From assembly GCA_019456195.1 (NCBI GenBank), contig VRUK01000001.1, forward strand, positions 62,001 through 126,000: a stretch of DNA of 64,000 bases. Direction: 5' to 3'. The notes under the pieces are model-generated. The model was not told the DNA's origin, did not search any database, and worked only from the letters and a program-made list of their open reading frames with translations. Both the position numbers and the translations under genes were made by a program. The stretch's first letter is position 1. The number at the start of each line of letters is the position of its first letter. This document shows, in pieces, positions 23,150-42,619 of this stretch. The stretch comes from Planctomycetota bacterium. GTDB lineage: Bacteria > Planctomycetota > Phycisphaerae > Sedimentisphaerales > Anaerobacaceae.

Positions 23150-24190
23150 TCAGGTTAGTTTGATGAGCTTCTGCTCTTTGGCGGATTTGTATATTGCCAG
23201 AATCACCTCCACTGCCTTACGTGCTTCTCGTCCGTCTATCCAGAAGTCTCTGCCGCTTTCCAGCGATTCGATAAACGCCTGGAAATTACGCGTATGATTC
23301 TCGTATGAGATAGCTGCCGGGTCGGAGACGCCGCCGCCGCCTTTGATTTCGCCGAATTTCTTTCGGATTTGCTCGTCTTCAGGTTTTTCGTCGACAAATT
23401 GCCAGTGTGTAATGCTGTTTTCGACGTTTATAACAGTGCCTTTTGTACCGGTAATTTCAAAACGCCTGAATTGTCCCGGATACGAGGCCGTGGTTCCATA
23501 GATAACTCCCAGTGCTCCATTGGTGTATCGCAGCACAGCAGTGGCGGTATCTTCTGTTTCGATCTGAGGGTGCCCCAGTTTGGCCGTGAATGCCTGCAAA
23601 GATTCAATCGGAGGCATTACGTCGCAAAGCATATCAACCATATGGATGGACTGATTTATCAGCGCTCCGCCGCCGTCAAGTTTCCATGTGCCGTGCCATG
23701 AGTCCTTATAATATTCGTCGGTGCGCCACCAGGGAACATATATACTGGCGTAAGTAATCACGCCGAAGCGTCCGGAATTTATGGCTTCCCTGAGAGGTAC
23801 CATCATATCGTTAAATCGATACGGAAATATGCCGCCCAAACGTGTGCCGCATTTTTCATGGGCCTCTACCATAGCGTCAATTCGCTCTAAGGTAATGTCC
23901 ATGGGCTTTTCGCATAATACATGTTTGCCGGCCTGTGCCGCGGCAACGGTCGGCTCCTTATGAAATCCGCTCGGTGTGGCGATAGTAACAATATCTATCT
24001 TCTCGCTCTTGAGCATATCTTCGTAACCGTCAAAGGCCTGAACGTTGAATTTATCTGCAAGGCTTTTAGCTCTTTCCGGTATCTTGTCACAACAGCCGAT
24101 TAGCTTTGCATTCGGAATATCGCCAATGGCTCTTGCATGAAAATCAGCTATTAATCCGGCACCCACTATTCCAAAATTCCAGGTTTTCAT
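23150..24190 (-). CDS. Gfo/Idh/MocA-family NAD(P)-dependent oxidoreductase, cytoplasmic
   Basis: This 346-residue enzyme begins directly with the Rossmann motif GIVGAGLIADFHARAI (G7-x-x-G10-x-G12), so it has no export signal. The active-site lysine is in LCEKPM (E94-K95-P96), and the second-domain histidine is in GGALINQSIHMVDML. Family members oxidise or reduce hydroxyls on sugars, inositols or biliverdin. The gene lies 24 bases downstream of a TIM-barrel isomerase on the same strand, a pairing typical of sugar or inositol catabolism. It converges with the glycosyltransferase gene. Confidence 0.92.
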   Translation of the reverse strand: MKTWNFGIVGAGLIADFHARAIGDIPNAKLIGCCDKIPERAKSLADKFNVQAFDGYEDMLKSEKIDIVTIATPSGFHKEPTVAAAQAGKHVLCEKPMDITLERIDAMVEAHEKCGTRLGGIFPYRFNDMMVPLREAINSGRFGVITYASIYVPWWRTDEYYKDSWHGTWKLDGGGALINQSIHMVDMLCDVMPPIESLQAFTAKLGHPQIETEDTATAVLRYTNGALGVIYGTTASYPGQFRRFEITGTKGTVINVENSITHWQFVDEKPEDEQIRKKFGEIKGGGGVSDPAAISYENHTRNFQAFIESLESGRDFWIDGREARKAVEVILAIYKSAKEQKLIKLT

Positions 24191-24214
24191 TTATATTTTC
24201 CTTTCCGTCTAAAA

Positions 24215-25051
24215 TTAATCACAAGCCAGTCCGACCTCGGCTGAAAGCTCTCTAACGGCGGCGATGGCCCTTGAAAAAAGCTCAGGACCAGTCGAGCCTC
24301 CGAACTGACCGCCGGATTGCAGGTGCGGCTCCATCGTAAGGCAGTCGTCGTAGTTCATAGCCGCAAGCTCTGCAAGCAGCTCTTTGATTTGCCCGTCGCC
24401 TTCGCCCGGTATACTACCCACGTCTTTTGCACCCAGCTTCCAGTCTTTGATGTGAATATGGACCACATAGTCTTTCATAAGTGGCCAGCAGCTCTCGACA
24501 TTATCTAATTTCTTTTCTCCCCACACGAAATTAGCCGGGTCATATACCAACCGAAGTTTCGGTGAATTGATGGTCTTTACAATATCAACGCAGTTCTCTG
24601 CGGTATGGCCGTAAATGTGAGCTTCGTTTTCATGCACCATTGTAACGTTGACATCACTCAGCACCTCAACCTTGGCTGCCATTCGTTCCATAACCTGTTC
24701 GCGGTAATCATCGATATTTTTGCCTTCCGGAGCATAGTAGCTGAACATTCGTATGAATGGAGTTTCAAGAAACATGGCCAACTCCACGGCGTGTTTGAAT
24801 TTATCCAGATGCGGCTCGAAAGGCTCGTCGAGTTTTACCTTGCCGATTGGTGAGCCGATGGCGCTAACTTTCAGACCGTGGTCCTGTATCATATTTTTTA
24901 CTTCATTCAGCTCGTTTTTTGTCAGGTCCATCAAGTTTTTCTTATCAACAAAACGAGGTTCGATATAACCGACCTTTTCGCCGGCCAGGTATTTAACTTG
25001 CTCTAAAAAGCTGTCGGTTACTTCATCCGCGAATGCACTTAATTTCGCCAT
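24215..25051 (-). CDS. Sugar phosphate isomerase/epimerase-like TIM barrel, cytoplasmic
   Basis: The 278 residues form an AP_endonuc_2-type TIM barrel without a leader: EKVGYIEPRFVD, VSAIGSPIGKV, FIRMFSYYAPEG, VTMVHENEAHIYG with the metal Glu/His, LRLVYDPANFVW with Asp, YVVHIHIKDW with His, and DCLTMEPHLQ with the closing Glu. The metal-ligand pattern E-D-H-E is complete, so the enzyme should be active. It pairs with the downstream oxidoreductase (24-base gap). Upstream, in frame with its ATG, lies a 45-base relic of the enolase-superfamily gene found at 29.9 kb. Confidence 0.9.
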   Translation of the reverse strand: MAKLSAFADEVTDSFLEQVKYLAGEKVGYIEPRFVDKKNLMDLTKNELNEVKNMIQDHGLKVSAIGSPIGKVKLDEPFEPHLDKFKHAVELAMFLETPFIRMFSYYAPEGKNIDDYREQVMERMAAKVEVLSDVNVTMVHENEAHIYGHTAENCVDIVKTINSPKLRLVYDPANFVWGEKKLDNVESCWPLMKDYVVHIHIKDWKLGAKDVGSIPGEGDGQIKELLAELAAMNYDDCLTMEPHLQSGGQFGGSTGPELFSRAIAAVRELSAEVGLACD

Positions 25052-25062
25052 TTTCAGTTTGC

Positions 25063-25107
25063 TCCATATATTGTTAAGCTGATTGAGAAGGCCGGGAAAT
25101 ATCGATT
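25063..25107 (-). pseudogene. Fossil fragment of the enolase-superfamily gene
   Basis: These 45 bases match 29909-29953, inside the enolase-superfamily gene, with only 5 mismatches and no gaps. On the minus strand they still read SIFPGLLNQLNNIW, against SILPGLLNQLNNKW in the intact gene, and the frame continues into the isomerase ATG. An in-frame TGA stands just before the fragment. It is a leftover from duplication or rearrangement. Confidence 0.7.
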
Positions 25108-25117
25108 TTCATAATTT

Positions 25118-25697
25118 TTTCTGATGTCATATACAATTAATCTATGAAATTCACTCAATTTAAAAAGTTGTAGCCTCAACAAAGTGATAAAATCGCTCTT
25201 TTAACTGCTAATATAGGCGATCTATGGTATTTTGTGCCAGAGCCTCACAAACTTATAAAGCCTGCACCCAACTGTTGTCAAGCCAAAAGTTTCTCAATAT
25301 TAGGAAATCCCCTTAGCTTGAGAAATTAGGGCTTGACACGAGTTCAACATTTTGTTACAGAATCGCTATTGGACTGGATTATGGTAAGGAGAGACCAGTC
25401 AGGAGTGATTCGATCTACCCAAATATGAAAAATATGCTTTCTTAAAAAAACATATAAATTTGAGCTTGACACGAGTTCAACATTTTGTTAAGGAAGTGAT
25501 AATATAAGACTGAGTGAAGGGTAATGATGGTCACCCATAGACAATAGTGAGCATGATGAACCCCACACAGCGCTTTCGTAGGAGAGACCTCATATGTTTG
25601 TGAACTTTCAATTGTAGAGTTAATCGGAGTTTCAGAAGAACCTCCGTTATATGATGTAGCCCAAGAATGATTCGGTGATCTGCAAAAAGGATTTTAT
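25118..25697. other. Long intergenic region before the heptad-protein/kinase genes
   Basis: Nearly 600 bases with no credible gene. The stretch contains a 27-base exact direct repeat (listed separately), an AAAAAGGA ribosome site at the right end, and AT-rich segments. It marks the left boundary of a three-gene block flanked by sugar-metabolism genes. Confidence 0.6.
25331..25490 (+). repeat. 27-base exact direct repeat containing TTGACA
   Basis: Copies at 25331-25357 and 25464-25490 are identical, start with GCTTGACACGAGTTCAACAT and end in TTTTGTTA. Their starts are 133 bases apart. Each holds a perfect -35 hexamer (TTGACA), but the bases 17 downstream (TACAGA, TAAGGA) are poor -10 elements, so activator-dependent promoters or regulator-binding sites are possible. 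Confidence 0.75.
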
Positions 25698-26216
25698 ATG
25701 TGGTTTACTAATAATTGGCTACTGGCAGTACTTAGTCTCATATTAGGAGTTCTCAGTTTCATAGTAGGGGCACTTGGTCTCTTAGTAGGGACACTCGGTC
25801 TCATAGTAAGCGTGCTTAGTCTAATGGTGACAGTACTCAGTCTGATTATCGGGTTAATTAGTCTTACAGCAAGCTTACACAGTTTCTTGAAGAAATATGT
25901 CAAGCCTTGTTTTGAAAACCTCGTTATTCGTTTATGCTTCCGGCTAATCCGAGATCTTAAATCCACTGCAATCCTCACAACCAGTATGCGGCTATTTCGC
26001 AGAATAGAAACCTATAGCATTTGTAGGATCAAAGAAGTTTTGTCAATTTGGTCTGGCTTGCATGCTTGGAAGAAGCGATGTCGCGACTTGGAAATGCTGG
26101 CGATACTCGGTATGCCCTTGGGTATTGCACCTTCGCTACTTGTGTACTGGATGAATGATGTAAACTTTTGTTGGCGTCTAAAGTACGTTCGACATGGTTT
26201 GTTGCCCGTGTTTTAA
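25698..26216 (+). CDS. Membrane protein with seven to eight tandem heptads (small-residue zipper)
   Basis: The 172-residue protein has no recognised family. Residues 11-59 are seven consecutive 7-residue units of pattern (V/A/T)L(S/G)(L/F)xx(G/S/T), for example VLSLILG, VLSFIVG, ALGLLVG and TLGLIVS, with an eighth polar unit (LHSFLKK) after them. All are hydrophobic, so the region should form two membrane helices or one very long one. Small residues recur every 3 and 4 positions, the GxxxG-like spacing that packs helices in oligomers. The DNA shows matching 21-base imperfect repeats. A basic cytoplasmic tail and one more hydrophobic segment (about 140-157) follow. AAAAAGGA precedes the ATG. 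It lies 58 bases upstream of the kinase. Confidence 0.6.
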   Translation: MWFTNNWLLAVLSLILGVLSFIVGALGLLVGTLGLIVSVLSLMVTVLSLIIGLISLTASLHSFLKKYVKPCFENLVIRLCFRLIRDLKSTAILTTSMRLFRRIETYSICRIKEVLSIWSGLHAWKKRCRDLEMLAILGMPLGIAPSLLVYWMNDVNFCWRLKYVRHGLLPVF

Positions 26217-26274
26217 GAGAAAGTTTGGCGTCCGTGTTTTGATGGCAAAATCCGTATAAGGGAAAGGTTAAATA

Positions 26275-28167
26275 TTGTTAGATGCTTTGAACAAGTATAT
26301 TGATCCGGTAGTCGCCGTGGACGAAAAGTATGCAATCTTTTTTGCTAATGAGGAAGCAATACGTCTTTGGGGATCCGTAAGTGGGAAAAAGTGTCACGAA
26401 TTCATCTATAAGCGCGGTTCCAAATGCCCACTCTGTGTAAAAAAAGATCTTGAAGCAAATGGATGGTCCAAAACGGAAAGGCGCTGCCGATTCATTAAAG
26501 ACAAGAATAATAATGACATCGAATGTTACGCTATCGTCACGCCTTACGAAATGAATCCTTCGGACAAGTGCCATCTGGAAATGTTTACACCAGTGCCAGG
26601 CGCAATTCGCGGTACACGCGCAATTATGGGTTTCGCAGAGGAACTTGAGAAATTAAGGGATCCTAACGAAATTTTTCGTGCTCTTGTAGAATTCCTCAGT
26701 AGTGACAAAACTGACCTGAAGTGCCGAACAAGGTGCTATAGTCTCGAACAGAGTAATCATAATGAAGGGCTTAGGCTGATATTTCATGACCATAGGATGG
26801 ATACTCATCCTTACTTAGACGACATTGGTCACCGCGTGATGAACCGTCAACCGACTAGCCAATTTAATGCGTCGTTTGCCTGTCTCGATCAAAAAGTATG
26901 GTTTCTTCTGACCCCGGAACCGCAAAAAGTTGATGCATTCAAAATCCACTTCAGAGCTAAGAACCGGGACAATCAGGAGAATCTATGGGATGCAGATCCA
27001 TTCATAGCCCGACAGCTGATTACTCTGTACTTATATGACAGAATCCAAGATGGAATCGCCACAATTTTCAAGGACCCAAGACCACATACGTTCCTTGACA
27101 TACCTATCTATACGAAAAAGAAAGCATATGGCAAGCTCTCCATCACTCTGTGGGAGAACTCGTTCCTGTTCTACAGGGAACATATTGAAGAACTCTGTCT
27201 AATTGAGAAGTTTGTAACACGCCGTCTGGCGGCAATTGAATCCTTGGATGAGACAAGGTCTGCAGTATCTCAAAATGTCATCCATGAAGTTGCTCAACCA
27301 GCATTCGCAGGTCTTTCGAGTATGGAAGCATTGAGACGTCGTGACCGTGATAATGGCAGGACTGCAAGGGATGAGCAAGTCGATTACTATCTGAAGAAAA
27401 ATGTCGAGTGCAGCCTGAAAATGGTTGCTTTCCTAAACGACCGGGGGCGCATCACCGAGGACATTCCCAGCTTTTCCGATACTACGACCAACTTCCTCAG
27501 TGATGTAGTAGCGCCTGTTGTGAATCTGACCCGGTTCGGTATTTATGAAAAGTATCTGAGAGACTCCGGTGAGAAAATGAATCCTTCAGAATTGGAAGAT
27601 ATTCAGGAGCCTCGATTCAAGAGTTCAGAATCCGTAAAATCTGTCTTTGGTGGCATAATTTATGAGATATCATATGGTGGCCGTTGTGACGAAGTGGAAG
27701 TCTATATCGAAAAGTATCGGCTTCAGCAAGTTGTGTATAATCTGCTGCACAATGCTCTTAAGTACAAAGGTCACGGGTACCATTACATGGTGCGCATACA
27801 ATACCGACCTACACTGACCGTCAAAGAAACAGAACTGTTTGCGGATTATTATGTAATTGACGTAACAGACCAGGGCTATGGAGTTGAACGTGGTGAGCAG
27901 GAAAAGATATTTCGGCTCTTCAAGCAAGGTATAAACGCTCGAAAGGTCTCGAATTTACCGGGTACCGGGCGAGGTTTGTATGTGTGCCGAGCAATTCTCA
28001 GAGGTGTAGGAGGAGAGGTGTTTGTTCAGAATATGCGTTCACCTACTGTTTTCCGAGTGCTTATTCCTCGAGAATGTAGATTTGATGACTGGCTGAGCAA
28101 GCTGGAGGATTTTAAAGGAAGAACTCGGGAGATTATGAGGCTATTAAGAGAAGGAGACCAATTATGA
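26275..28167 (+). CDS. Soluble histidine kinase with Cys-containing PAS and GAF-like domains
   Basis: A TTG start with GGGAAAGG upstream gives 630 residues. A PAS domain at about 1-110 carries the conserved GKKCHEFIYKRGSKCPLC stretch, a Cys-rich loop seen in many PAS_4 domains. A GAF-like region follows (about 115-320). The dimerisation box is atypical, NVIHEVAQPAFAGLSSMEAL with predicted phospho-His H337. The ATPase domain has an N box (YNLLHNALKYK), G1 (DQGYGVERG), F box (IFRLFKQG) and G2 (GTGRGLYVCRAIL). No membrane helix is seen. It overlaps the receiver gene by 4 bases (ATGA), so the two are coupled, and it follows the heptad membrane protein. Confidence 0.88.
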   Translation: MLDALNKYIDPVVAVDEKYAIFFANEEAIRLWGSVSGKKCHEFIYKRGSKCPLCVKKDLEANGWSKTERRCRFIKDKNNNDIECYAIVTPYEMNPSDKCHLEMFTPVPGAIRGTRAIMGFAEELEKLRDPNEIFRALVEFLSSDKTDLKCRTRCYSLEQSNHNEGLRLIFHDHRMDTHPYLDDIGHRVMNRQPTSQFNASFACLDQKVWFLLTPEPQKVDAFKIHFRAKNRDNQENLWDADPFIARQLITLYLYDRIQDGIATIFKDPRPHTFLDIPIYTKKKAYGKLSITLWENSFLFYREHIEELCLIEKFVTRRLAAIESLDETRSAVSQNVIHEVAQPAFAGLSSMEALRRRDRDNGRTARDEQVDYYLKKNVECSLKMVAFLNDRGRITEDIPSFSDTTTNFLSDVVAPVVNLTRFGIYEKYLRDSGEKMNPSELEDIQEPRFKSSESVKSVFGGIIYEISYGGRCDEVEVYIEKYRLQQVVYNLLHNALKYKGHGYHYMVRIQYRPTLTVKETELFADYYVIDVTDQGYGVERGEQEKIFRLFKQGINARKVSNLPGTGRGLYVCRAILRGVGGEVFVQNMRSPTVFRVLIPRECRFDDWLSKLEDFKGRTREIMRLLREGDQL

Positions 28168-28679
28168 ACCGAGTAATCTATTTTATTGAGGACCAGGAGG
28201 CTCTGACGCCATACATCTTGCTTGCACGCCACGAGGATAGATTCCCCGGTTGCAGGATTCTTGCGGCAGATTCAATAGATGATGCTATTAAGTGGTGCAA
28301 CGAATACGACGGAGAAGTGCTGTTTGTGGTGGACAGCAGGATGAGCAGTGAACTTCTTCCGAAGTATTTGGAAAAGGCCCTTGAGGACAGTGGAGATAAG
28401 ATACAAGATCTCTCGGGCTTAGTTTCAAACGAATATCTAACAGGCATGCTGGGGACAGTTGTATTGAAAAATCTGAAACCAAACTGCCGGACTATTCTAT
28501 TGACGGCCTTTTCCAAAACTATAAGCGAGATTAGACAAAGCCATCCGTTACTTAACGGAATGTTAGAAGATTCAATTGACGTTTCGCTTTCGAAAGCAAG
28601 CCCTGAAGCATTAACAGAAGCAATCCAGACGCAGCTTATGGAGTTATCACGGGCTCGAAGACAGCGACCAAGCGAGTGA
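28164..28679 (+). CDS. Stand-alone receiver domain with an insertion
   Basis: The 171-residue product reads as a CheY-like receiver without output domain. The acidic pair E9-D10, phospho-acceptor D57 (VVDSRM), T114 (ILLTAF) and K144 (SLSKAS) are in order, so phosphotransfer is possible. Between D57 and T114 there are about 57 residues instead of the usual 25-30, pointing to a helical insertion (roughly 62-105). It is translated from an ATGA overlap with the kinase gene. With no DNA-binding domain, its target is probably a protein, perhaps the membrane protein encoded two genes upstream; that is inference. Confidence 0.72.
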   Translation: MNRVIYFIEDQEALTPYILLARHEDRFPGCRILAADSIDDAIKWCNEYDGEVLFVVDSRMSSELLPKYLEKALEDSGDKIQDLSGLVSNEYLTGMLGTVVLKNLKPNCRTILLTAFSKTISEIRQSHPLLNGMLEDSIDVSLSKASPEALTEAIQTQLMELSRARRQRPSE

Positions 28680-28865
28680 GGCATTATATATAAAGGTGAA
28701 ATGGAGTAATAATATATTTTTTCCTTTGGGCTATCCATGGCCCATAACTATTTGTCCCATCTTGCCGTTTATTTTAAAACAACTGATTTCCCGAACTTGC
28801 AATCTCTTTCAAAGCTTGAGCCTCCCCCTTGATCATCCTGGGTTCCTCTCAGTATTTTTGATTCG

Positions 28866-30272
28866 CTACTTTCCAAAACTTGCAGCTTTTTCTGGCAGGT
28901 CTCTTTTGATTTCATCAAGTCTGTAACCAAAACCCGGCCCGCTTATTGTCGATAAGTCAACCTGACCGTTATGCCGTCGGTAAAGCCCCGGATGTACGAC
29001 CTCCTCCGGCGCCGAAGCCGCCGGATAGAATTGCATCGCATTGGTCTCGACACCCATGATAGTTCCCGCGTGCGCCGCTAAACGAACGTGAGGAATCTGT
29101 GCCAGCATCGGGTTGGTCAAGTCCTGTACCATCAAGGTCATCCCATGCGCCTTTGCCCAGCACAAACTAAGCAATGCACCGGTTTGAGTTTTGCAGGTTT
29201 TCAGCGCAACTCCGGTCCAGCCTAATTTTCTCCCGAGCCTAACTATTTTCCAGTTGTGGGCGCTTTCGTCCATAAACAAAGGCTTTCGCGCCGAGACGCT
29301 GTGAACATCAATCTGGTTTTCTTCAAGGTCGTATGGAAACGGCTGCTCAACATATAAAAGCTGCTGATAGATTCGAGGATGCTCTTGCACAAATCTGTCA
29401 AGAATGTCATTCACGTATGCCGGGTCGGTAACAGTGCAGTTAAAATCGCTGGTCAGCCACACAACATTATTCTCGAATGCGATTTTGCCGACCTTAATCA
29501 AACGTTCATAGTCCCATGAAGAATCGTTGCCTCGCAGTTTTACCTTCAGGCAAGTCAGCCCATCACGCTTTATCCAGTCCGGCAGTAATACCGGATAGCC
29601 GTCGTCTGGTTCCTGCCCTGTTAGCTCTGATGTGTCGAGCAAATCCTTACCACCTACCAGGTGCCATGCAGGTAAAGTCTTCGCCGTGGGAATGGCAAAG
29701 AAATCTTCAGGGTATTTGCCCGCAAAGGATATATCTGCATTCTCGGCCGGCTCGATGAAATCGGACAGATCAGTGTTCATAAATTCGGCATTGTAAGTAG
29801 AGTACACATCCCGCTCCAGAAGCTGGCCGTATGCATCGTGTATGGCAACATCAAAGGCCGAGCTGCAAACCAAAGCCGCCAGATGTGGCATTGGCCCTAC
29901 CTGTTCTGTCCATTTGTTGTTGAGCTGATTGAGGAGGCCGGGCAATATCGATTCGATAAAATCATGCCCTAATTCAATCGGATGGCCCTGACGGTCGAAC
30001 TCTACCCATGCCTGAGCAAGCATCCGGCAGAAATCTTCCATCACCTCATTCCTTTCATTATGTCCTAAGCTGCTGCTCGGCCAGGCCCATTCGGCGCTTA
30101 ATGGAGTTTCTCCCCATCCCTGCGCTCTCTGTCCTTGTTTATTCACCACCGTAACGCAAACGCGTGCACAGGTAACATGTGTTACTACCTGGGTCCCGAA
30201 CTTCAAGGGAACTCTTGTTTCCACAGGAATAAAGTACACATCAACAGATACCGGGCTAATATCGGTTTTCAT
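28866..30272 (-). CDS. Enolase-superfamily enzyme (mandelate racemase/muconate lactonizing type)
   Basis: This 468-residue cytoplasmic protein has the enolase-superfamily layout: an N-terminal capping domain (1-130), then a modified TIM barrel. Catalytic signatures are LTCLKVKLRG (KxK base), WLTSDFN, LLYVEQPFP and LFMDESAHN with the three acidic metal ligands, then GVALKTCKTQTG with the opposite lysine. Members abstract a proton next to a carboxylate, as in sugar-acid dehydratases and epimerases. It is somewhat longer than the usual 370-400 residues, with an insertion around 155-215. It stands alone among oxidoreductase and isomerase genes, fitting acid-sugar breakdown. A small relic of this gene lies at 25063-25107. 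Confidence 0.87.
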   Translation of the reverse strand: MKTDISPVSVDVYFIPVETRVPLKFGTQVVTHVTCARVCVTVVNKQGQRAQGWGETPLSAEWAWPSSSLGHNERNEVMEDFCRMLAQAWVEFDRQGHPIELGHDFIESILPGLLNQLNNKWTEQVGPMPHLAALVCSSAFDVAIHDAYGQLLERDVYSTYNAEFMNTDLSDFIEPAENADISFAGKYPEDFFAIPTAKTLPAWHLVGGKDLLDTSELTGQEPDDGYPVLLPDWIKRDGLTCLKVKLRGNDSSWDYERLIKVGKIAFENNVVWLTSDFNCTVTDPAYVNDILDRFVQEHPRIYQQLLYVEQPFPYDLEENQIDVHSVSARKPLFMDESAHNWKIVRLGRKLGWTGVALKTCKTQTGALLSLCWAKAHGMTLMVQDLTNPMLAQIPHVRLAAHAGTIMGVETNAMQFYPAASAPEEVVHPGLYRRHNGQVDLSTISGPGFGYRLDEIKRDLPEKAASFGK

Positions 30273-30549
30273 ATTTCCCTCATTGCAATTGTCCGATTAT
30301 TTTCAATGATTTACTGGTGATTCATTAGAAGATTTATAACTTATGAGTAATTATTGTCAACCCTAACTTTCCCGTAATCTAAAACTAACCATTCATTTCA
30401 ACAAAGCGCCGAGATTATTTTGTAATGATTTCTTTTTGTAAGAGGCCTTGCGGAAGGGGAATGTTTAGGTTATATTTACTATTTCTATTGATCAAAATCT
30501 CTGTAATTGTAAAGGATGTCATTTCGATTGATTATTGAAAGGAGCAAAT

Positions 30550-31722
30550 ATGAAACTCAACCGAAAATTGAAGATGGGAATGGTTGGTGGTGGACCCGGA
30601 GCGTTTATAGGTGAAGTACACCGCAAGGCGTCAAGTTTGGATCATGGTATCGATTTTGTGGCCGGGGCCTTTGACATTAACCCGAAAAAATCAAAGCAAA
30701 TGGGGCGCGAGCTTCTTCTCGACCGTAAACGTGTGTATGGTACTTACCAGCAAATGATCGAGGGCGAACTTAAGCTGCCTGAGGGTGAAAAGATAGATTT
30801 TGTCACAATTACTACGCCGAACAACTGGCACTTTCCTATCGCCAGAGATTTTCTTAAGGCTGGTTTCCACGTAATGTGCGAAAAACCAATGACAATCAGT
30901 GTTAAGGAAGCAAAGGTCCTGCAACAGCTCGTTAAGAAGTCTCGCAAGGTGTTCGGACTGATGCATAATTACACCGGTTACCCAATGGTTAAATTAGCTC
31001 GTGACATGGTACGAAAAGGCGAATTAGGTAATATCCGCAAGATAGTAGTTCAGTACCCGCAGGGCTGGCTGGCCACTGCGCTGGAAAAAACAGGCCAGAT
31101 GCAGGCCGCATGGCGAACCGACCCGAAGCAAAGCGGCGGCGCCGGATCTATGGGTGACATTGGTACACATGCTGAGAATCTTTCGGAATATATCACAGGA
31201 CTGAAGATTACACAACTGTGTGCGGACCTGAGTATTTTTGTCAAAGGGCGTCGTTTGGATGATGACGGCAATATTCTGCTGCGATTTAATAATGGTGCAA
31301 GAGGAGTTCTGCACGCGAGCCAGGTTTCAGTCGGCGAAGAGAACAATCTGGCCATCTGGATTTATGGTGAAAACAAAGGTCTGGAATGGCATCAGGAACA
31401 TCCAAACTACCTGTATGTAAAATTTCCGAACGCTCCTGAGCAGGTTTGGAAACGGGGCAATCCTTATATCGCTGCAAAAAGCGCCGCCGCCGCCCGGGCT
31501 ACACGACTGCCATCCGGTCATCCGGAAGCCTTCTTTGAGGCTTTTGCAAACAATTATTTGAATTTCGCAGAAACCATACGGGCGAAAATAACCAGATCGA
31601 AACTCAATCCGTTGGCACTGGACTTCCCGAATGTTAACGATGGTCTGCGTGGCATGCAGTTCATAGAGACTGTCCTGGCAAGCACCAAGAGCAAACAGAA
31701 ATGGACCAAATTTAAGAAGTAA
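30550..31722 (+). CDS. Gfo/Idh/MocA-family oxidoreductase, cytoplasmic
   Basis: The ATG at 30550 is chosen over an in-frame TTG at 30535 because AAAGGAG lies between the two at the right distance. The 390 residues open with MGMVGGGPGAFIGEVHRKA (Rossmann glycines), then FVTITTPNNWHFPIA, VMCEKPMTIS with the catalytic EKP, GSMGDIGTHAENLSEY with the second-domain His, and FFEAFANNYLNFAETI. This longer type is common in Planctomycetota and Bacteroidetes and usually acts on sugars or inositols. No leader is seen, unlike the Tat-exported paralogues at 32.8 and 39.2 kb. Confidence 0.92.
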   Translation: MKLNRKLKMGMVGGGPGAFIGEVHRKASSLDHGIDFVAGAFDINPKKSKQMGRELLLDRKRVYGTYQQMIEGELKLPEGEKIDFVTITTPNNWHFPIARDFLKAGFHVMCEKPMTISVKEAKVLQQLVKKSRKVFGLMHNYTGYPMVKLARDMVRKGELGNIRKIVVQYPQGWLATALEKTGQMQAAWRTDPKQSGGAGSMGDIGTHAENLSEYITGLKITQLCADLSIFVKGRRLDDDGNILLRFNNGARGVLHASQVSVGEENNLAIWIYGENKGLEWHQEHPNYLYVKFPNAPEQVWKRGNPYIAAKSAAAARATRLPSGHPEAFFEAFANNYLNFAETIRAKITRSKLNPLALDFPNVNDGLRGMQFIETVLASTKSKQKWTKFKK

Positions 31723-32103: not shown

Positions 32104-32775
32104 GTGATTGAGAAGATAAAACATATCAGGAATCCGCTGACTATTGTTGCCGTATTTGTAGCGATTGCAGAGATCGTTGGCACAGTTTCACTCACAACTC
32201 TGAATGAGAGACACCATATTGTTATCGTCTGGTTTCTCGTGCTTTTCCCAACGCTTCTCGTTGTCTTATTCTTTTTTACTCTTTGGCATAAACCTTGGGT
32301 CCTCATATTCCCCAGCGATTTCAAAGAAGGCAAAGATTACCTCAAAATGCTTACGATTGTGCAAAGATTATCCCTTGAACTATACGGTATCGATGCCCAA
32401 ATTCAGAACTCTAACAAAAAAATCATTAATGGAGTGCTCTTATGTAACAACTCACAAAAAGAGAATACAAACCGAATCTCCGAGATACTCAATAACGAAA
32501 CTGCACAAATGATTGGTAGAATCAACTTTGCGAGATCATCTTTAGAACAATATGCTATGAGTATTCTTCCTCATGCTTTACCACAATCACGATTACAGCA
32601 TGATATCTTTCATGAATTACGAAAAAGCCCAGAAGCATTGTCATTTTCACAGATTTGCGAAAAGATTAAAAGGGACAGAACGGAGATTAAGAAAGCTTTC
32701 GATAGGATGGTTCAACGACATATTATAAAAACAATAAACCGTTCAGACGGAATTTCGTATATTTTGAATCTTTAA
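32104..32775 (+). CDS. Membrane-tethered winged-helix-like protein
   Basis: A GTG start gives 223 residues. Two hydrophobic helices (about 11-31 and 39-61) form an N-terminal hairpin anchor. A helical middle follows (about 75-155). The C-terminal 70 residues resemble a winged helix: ALSFSQICEKIKRDRTEIKKAFDRMVQRHIIKT reads like a MarR/ArsR-type recognition unit, then the wing RSDGISYILNL. This suggests a regulator held at the membrane. I do not recognise the family and know no partner; the following oxidoreductase gene (55 bases away) is a candidate target or neighbour only. Confidence 0.6.
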   Translation: MIEKIKHIRNPLTIVAVFVAIAEIVGTVSLTTLNERHHIVIVWFLVLFPTLLVVLFFFTLWHKPWVLIFPSDFKEGKDYLKMLTIVQRLSLELYGIDAQIQNSNKKIINGVLLCNNSQKENTNRISEILNNETAQMIGRINFARSSLEQYAMSILPHALPQSRLQHDIFHELRKSPEALSFSQICEKIKRDRTEIKKAFDRMVQRHIIKTINRSDGISYILNL

Positions 32776-37439: not shown

Positions 37440-38042
37440 AATTTTTCGTTCAAAAACGCTCACTCTCAAAAACAAAAATAAAATATTTCCAAAATTTTTA
37501 TCTCCTTTTCCCACATCGAGTTACAAGAATCCAGCCTCGAAAATCGACACTTTTTTCGGTTCAAAAGTGCACACTCGTCTAATTATAGAGGGAGTTTTTT
37601 TTACTCCCTGAGTTTACTCGAGTTTATCCCCGGGTGCTGCTAACTTGGTGTGCAACAGGGGAAGCGCTGCTAACTTGACACGCAACAGGGGGCCTAAGCC
37701 CACAATATGAAATCTGAGATATGAAATCTAAATCATGAGCATCAATTATCCAACTTTAGTTCACTTTAGGCACATTAGTCACGTTAGGCACCCTTTCAAT
37801 TATAACATATTTCCGATACACCCTTTTTATGCAAAACAAAGCCAAAGTCAAGTACGCCAAAAACAACCTAAACGCTTATGTAACAGTGAGATACGTAAAA
37901 ATGGACAATTGGTTATTCAGACAAAACAAACCCAATTCAAAGCCAATAAAGCCAAAAACAAAGCCAATTCAAACCCAATTAAAGCCAATACAAACCCAAT
38001 TCAAAGCCAAAATCCTGTGAGAAAAACCCGAAGTTTGAGAAT
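37440..38042 (+). repeat. Element A: left copy of a 600-base inverted repeat pair
   Basis: This segment is related over its whole length to the reverse complement of 41995-42619. Shared landmarks in order: TCAAAAACGCTCACTCT; an A/T-rich block with AAAATTTTTATCTCC; GGTTCAAAAGTGCACACTCG; a GGGAGT..ACTCCC hairpin (37590-37608); two copies of a 30-base unit with GCTGCTAACTTG and CAACAGGGG; GGGCCTAAGCCCACAATATG; TTTCAATTATAACATAT; TATGCAAAACAAAGCCAA; a run of CCAATTCAAAGCCAA-like repeats; and a GAGAAAAACCCGAAG end. No transposase is inside. It looks like a non-autonomous mobile or repetitive element. Confidence 0.82.
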
Positions 38043-41994: not shown

Positions 41995-42619
41995 TTCTCA
42001 TACTTCGTGGTTTTCTCATAGGTTTCTCAGCACCAAATTTATTTAAAGTTGGGTTTGAATTGGGTTTGAATTGGGTTTGTTTTTCAACCCCCGCCAATCG
42101 CCTAAATTTACGTAACTCATATATAGATAAGTGTTTATGTTCTTTTTGTCATTTCTTAAATTGGCTTTGTTTTGCATAAAAGGGTGTACTGGGAATATGT
42201 TATAATTGAAAGAGTGCCTAAAGTGACTAAAGTGCCTAAAGTGAGCTAAAGTTGGGTGTTTCATATCTCTTATCTCATTCCGTCCACTGAAAGCCGGATA
42301 AAATTTCATATTGTGGGCTTAGGCCCCCTGTTATAGGCCAAGTGAGTAGTTCTTCCCCTGTTGCGAACCAAGTTAGCAGCACCTCCCCTGTTATGAGTCG
42401 AGTTAGCAGCTCTCGGGGATAAACTCAGGATAAACTCGGGTAAACTCAGGGAGTAAAAAAAAGCCTCCCTCTATAATTAGACGAGTGTGCACTTTTGAAC
42501 CGAAAAATCTGCTATATTTTTTGGCTCTTTGCTTGTAAGTCGTTGTTATTAAGGGAGATAAAAATTTTATAAATATTTTATTTTTGTTTTTTAGAGTGAG
42601 CGTTTTTGACTGAAAATTG
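41995..42619 (-). repeat. Element B: right copy of the 600-base inverted repeat pair
   Basis: Read on the minus strand this matches element A landmark by landmark. Differences are informative: it has three copies of the 30-base GCTGCTAACTYG unit instead of two, an extra GAGTTTATCC repeat, and fewer CCAATTCAAA-like units. It carries a frame for a small peptide (MQNKANLRND to KPNSNPIQTQ) that also exists in element A in diverged form. Its inner end abuts the leader region of the SH3 gene. Confidence 0.82.

Follow-up and report, generated by a model that had tools for sequence, protein, structure and literature searches.

What could a membrane protein of repeated heptads, a histidine kinase and a receiver do together amid sugar genes, and did the three genes arrive as one piece of DNA? 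The locus that raises these questions lies in a Planctomycetota bacterium (GCA_019456195.1, contig VRUK01000001.1). Our window is a stretch of 64,000 nt, part of a 161-kb contig from a 5.8-Mb assembly that is 94.6% complete. An ORF scan placed the three genes on one strand (Table 1). The membrane ORF starts with ATG, preceded by the Shine-Dalgarno-like AAAAAGGA, and the kinase starts with TTG, preceded by the Shine-Dalgarno-like GGGAAAGG. The receiver ATG and the kinase stop codon share 4 bp (ATGA), and a 58-bp gap separates the membrane ORF from the kinase gene.

Table 1. Features of the inserted block and its junctions (positions in the window).
Feature	Position	Strand	Remarks
Island	25064..28865		DNA missing from three same-genus genomes, 34 bp there instead
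Left-junction copy, ~52 bp	25057..25107		decayed second copy (86.5%) of enolase-like gene piece 29904-29953, same orientation
Direct repeat, copy 1	25323..25362	+	weak stem-loop, -5.4 kcal/mol
Direct repeat, copy 2 (90%)	25456..25495	+	same stem-loop, -8.4 kcal/mol
Membrane ORF, 172 aa	25698..26216	+	aa 9-64 hydrophobic heptads; basic tail; aa 132-150 second hydrophobic stretch
Heptad array, 21-bp tandem	25722..25889	+	eight hydrophobic heptads
Soluble histidine kinase, 630 aa	26275..28167	+	Cys-PAS, middle region, DHp with HEVAQP, HATPase_c (aa 482-599)
Stand-alone receiver, 171 aa	28164..28679	+	phosphorylation residues all kept; ~27-29-aa insert, beta3/beta4
Terminator-like stem and T run near island right end	28838..28852	+	weak; 4 sites found vs 3.3 expected by chance

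To look for an empty site, we compared the DNA of positions 23150-31722 with genomes of the same genus. In three of them (G001, G002 and G005), the two flanks are present at 81-93% identity and lie next to each other on one contig; the site between them measures 34 bp, versus ~3.8 kb in this genome. On one side of the insertion point is the stop codon of an enolase-superfamily gene (28866-30272, minus strand), on the other the Shine-Dalgarno sequence of a xylose-isomerase-like gene (24215-25051, minus strand); these neighbors stand beside Gfo/Idh/MocA dehydrogenases. Since the flanking sugar genes are on the minus strand and the insertion falls between them, the module is antisense within a sugar operon. 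The block is a genuine insertion into a conserved sugar-metabolism operon, and the empty site in three relatives strongly supports its description in the initial annotation as an island among sugar genes. The claim of a compact same-strand three-gene unit likewise held, all three genes being inside a single insertion that the three relatives lack.

Besides the three genes, the ~3.8-kb insertion holds nothing else sizeable, and the island showed no sign of a transposase, an integrase or a target duplication. The junction copy derives from a source internal to the enolase-like gene, 4.8 kb away; its presence at the left junction suggests either error-prone joining or duplication of local DNA. 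In the ungapped part of 25057-25107 against 29904-29953, most positions that differ read A in the junction copy. Recognizing the island by composition was rejected (GC 0.42-0.45 vs 0.45 for the window). The codon scores of kinase and receiver fall toward the bottom of the host range, as acquired DNA would lead one to expect.

Other parts of the window drew our attention as well. An ORF of 223 aa at 32104-32772 has two hydrophobic segments and, by eye, a possible C-terminal winged-helix-like part; its GC is 0.37, its codons are host-atypical and it has no Pfam match, and it is possibly a further acquired gene. Short tandem arrays lie near ORF starts at 37922-38010 and 42049-42079 (e.g. CAAACCCAATTCAAAGCCAATT, TTGGGTTTGAA).

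Is the second gene a soluble histidine kinase, as had been claimed? We found a HATPase_c domain (PF02518, E=7e-18) that supports this assignment and is the only Pfam domain recognized in the protein; the N, G1, F and G2 boxes are visible by eye, and there is no evident membrane part. The proposed GAF domain fared less well, with no Pfam profile match at E<=1 for aa 125-325, which are GAF-like by eye only. The N-terminal PAS (aa 4-59 are 32% identical to a same-phylum protein, E=5e-5) carries GKKCHEF...CPLC, which fits the pattern GKKC[HY]-x(n)-CxxC and recurs in the proteins L017 and L029. Hence, a Cys-rich PAS is present as claimed, and it is of an ordinary type, the pattern being common among same-phylum proteins. 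The H box, NVIHEVAQP, aligns in register with NVSHELRTP at a score reached by 14 of 1000 shuffles, a marginal DHp similarity. HEVAQP is a weak H box, with normal H-to-P spacing and in register with HELRTP boxes.

A soluble kinase raises the question of whether the membrane protein serves on the input side, anchoring or gating the kinase while the receiver acts elsewhere. Such an arrangement would fit the missing membrane part of the kinase, the first place of the membrane gene in the operon and the basic tail after the hydrophobic stretch of its product. However, 172 aa are too few for a periplasmic sensory domain and the kinase carries its own PAS sensor, so we consider a role in input improbable.

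The third gene gave no match to Pfam Response_reg, and we compared it with a profile made from the genome's own receivers (31 distinct sequences). The profile aligns aa 29-60 (beta2-beta3, D57) and 100-122 (beta4, T114), with ~29 extra residues between them. Of 2000 shuffles made, 1652 were scored; 2 reached the score of the full-length protein, and none that of the protein with the insert cut out. Likewise, hhalign gave the same register (P=0.0008). Among 276 proteins scored, an unrelated ORF nearly equals the receiver (6.2 vs 6.5 bits). Hence, the score over the whole length is not strong by itself, and the case for identity lies in the register and in the conservation of E9-D10, D57, T114 and K144. 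Judged by these features, the protein is a genuine but divergent receiver from the PF00072 superfamily. Both earlier claims about it, namely complete phosphorylation residues with no output domain and an insertion of 25-30 residues (about 27-29 after the phospho-Asp), agree with these results. The single-sequence AF2 model of the receiver (pLDDT 39) was unusable.

The first ORF does read as a membrane protein of repeated heptads. They run from LAVLSLI to ASLHSFL and are of the type V-G-x-L-S-L-I (array match 70%), with small residues (G/A/S/T) in 16/16 cases at heptad positions 2 and 5; the first charged residue of the protein is K65. Such a small-residue stripe would suit helix packing in membranes. 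The structure prediction that had been proposed for this protein, run on it alone (AF2, single-sequence), gave one helix (residues 2-88) with good scores up to about residue 55, and the model has no PDB match. A single long AF2 helix is the usual outcome for repeats. The ~50-residue hydrophobic stretch could equally form a hairpin of two membrane helices.

Is the membrane ORF a gene at all? Deviations between heptads number 5 at codon position 2, compared with 12 and 17 at positions 1 and 3 (p=0.015), and this conservation of position 2 favors selection on the protein. Synonymous codon use of the ORF is below that of 62/62 host pieces tested, its antisense frame scores about as well as its sense frame in codon statistics, and a dN/dS-style test on the heptads did not separate the two frames. 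The idea that the tail came from another gene by a frameshift was rejected, as the other frames match nothing. The membrane ORF is probably coding, and it is the least certain of the three genes.

These data bear on whether the block is an ordinary two-component pair whose receiver feeds another pathway (a phosphorelay, a phosphate sink or a CheY-like target), with the membrane ORF as either a passenger or an expanded minisatellite that has no function. In favor of it, Response_reg occurs at 31 places in the genome, several within short open frames, and a passenger would agree with the host-atypical codon use of the ORF, its tandem-repeat origin and the gap ahead of the kinase. An open frame of 172 codons with a good Shine-Dalgarno sequence, the conservation of codon position 2 and the location within the same insertion all argue against it, and we hold this explanation to be rather unlikely.

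Does the block have relatives elsewhere? The large collections that we searched cover close relatives, and the distant ones were represented by ~400 genomes of the phylum and 161 of the order. For the kinase, there was no orthologue among 99 relatives or in phages (HATPase-only matches in both), none in 392 phylum genomes or 161 order genomes (the whole order), and none in the genome_contigs, viral or plasmid collections. No receiver orthologue was found in the 392 phylum and 161 order genomes or in the viral, plasmid and phage collections. The membrane protein had chance-level matches only, many in broken frames, in genome_contigs, viral sequences, plasmids and 294 phylum genomes. The three-gene block is an orphan, with no relative in the collections searched, and this status means that its function is not inferable by comparison.

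Upstream of the operon, the direct repeat noted in the initial annotation consists of two 40-nt copies (90% match) within a 0.63-kb leader. The 25-nt core of the repeats occurs nowhere else in the 5.8-Mb genome and Rfam gave no match to the repeats, which may be operators or attenuator-like hairpins.

We also compared the block with known systems. Canonical two-component systems whose response regulator is single-domain (CheY-like) share with it a PAS kinase with HATPase_c, a complete stand-alone receiver and overlapping genes; in contrast to them, the receiver here is below Pfam detection with an insert of ~29 aa, the kinase DHp is marginally recognizable and no orthologues were found. HEF_HK/Response_reg_2 pairs (PF19191/PF19192; PMC8011034) likewise combine a soluble kinase with an adjacent, divergent receiver whose loops are extended. 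However, the H box here is HEV rather than HEF, a PAS sensor is present and there are no restriction-modification genes among the scanned neighbors; since neither PF19191 nor PF19192 matches, identity with these pairs was excluded by profile. A pair with Response_reg_2 and a HEF-type kinase does occur in a genome of the same phylum (L037 in G125), where it is rare (1/246 genomes).

Could the block instead serve defense? In a Detocs-type scheme, the kinase would sense phage, the receiver would signal and a membrane-disrupting effector would follow. The buffer protein of Detocs is receiver-only, and its third component joins a receiver to an effector in one protein. Detocs as a whole combines a kinase with a response regulator and a buffer protein that absorbs phosphate (PMC11728103; PMC11249213). 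The block resembles it in its three genes, with a kinase, a receiver-only protein and a potential killer; its nature as a lateral, sporadic island would also fit. However, the third Detocs component is a response regulator, whereas the putative effector here has no receiver domain (no room, no sign), and a PNP domain and a defense context are absent; the search for defense or stress genes that had been suggested returned none among the neighbors scanned. PADLOC matches were at chance level only. Typical kinases of the window match only PDC-M43B models, so PADLOC seems to lack a Detocs kinase model and its result is no argument against Detocs. We rate this scheme as quite improbable, and the likeness to Detocs would be at best one of working in a similar way.

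Pore effectors offer a further comparison. SLATT/2TM effectors of conflict systems (PMC7159879) are also short membrane proteins beside a sensing module, and their profiles matched the membrane protein at chance level only (SLATT_4 E=0.67; PADLOC 2TM E=0.049). A mobile module for defense or self-killing, whose cytosolic kinase would phosphorylate an unfused, insert-bearing receiver and whose receiver would in turn switch how a small-residue-zipper membrane pore oligomerizes, is in our view very doubtful.

How, then, might the three proteins work together? Alongside what was observed directly (gene layout, intact HATPase domain, receiver with insert, operon insertion and absence from relatives), we tentatively favor an acquired operon that encodes a cytoplasmic two-component system, with a receiver that acts by protein contact and has the membrane protein as its likeliest partner. 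The operon would have been gained laterally as the ~3.8-kb insertion. The kinase PAS would sense an intracellular cue, with a redox or metal cue plausible from its CxxC-type cysteines; the kinase would autophosphorylate on the His of HEVAQP and the phosphoryl group would pass to D57 of the stand-alone receiver. Having no output domain, the receiver would work through protein contact, most likely switching the assembly of the small-residue-zipper membrane protein encoded with it. What is safe in this picture is the logic of a two-component system that has a stand-alone receiver. Catalytic activity and the cue are inferred, and so, most of all, is the receiver-to-membrane step, which is drawn from co-insertion and gene order only. 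Against that step, neither a fusion nor a sequence link joins the receiver to the membrane protein, and with no orthologue in the collections searched there is no conserved linkage. On the phospho-relay controlling a membrane oligomer that the initial annotation had suggested, the results thus speak neither in favor nor against. In one study (PMC12802240), a single-domain response regulator activates a phosphoglycosyl transferase via direct interaction, which is a precedent for direct control of a membrane enzyme by such a protein.

Because the site is cleanly empty in three sister species, the acquisition of this complete unit of sensor, receiver and membrane protein can be dated; the unit has no mobility gene. 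If it is true that the receiver acts on the membrane protein, the operon would be a compact non-transcriptional two-component output, of which few examples have been worked out.
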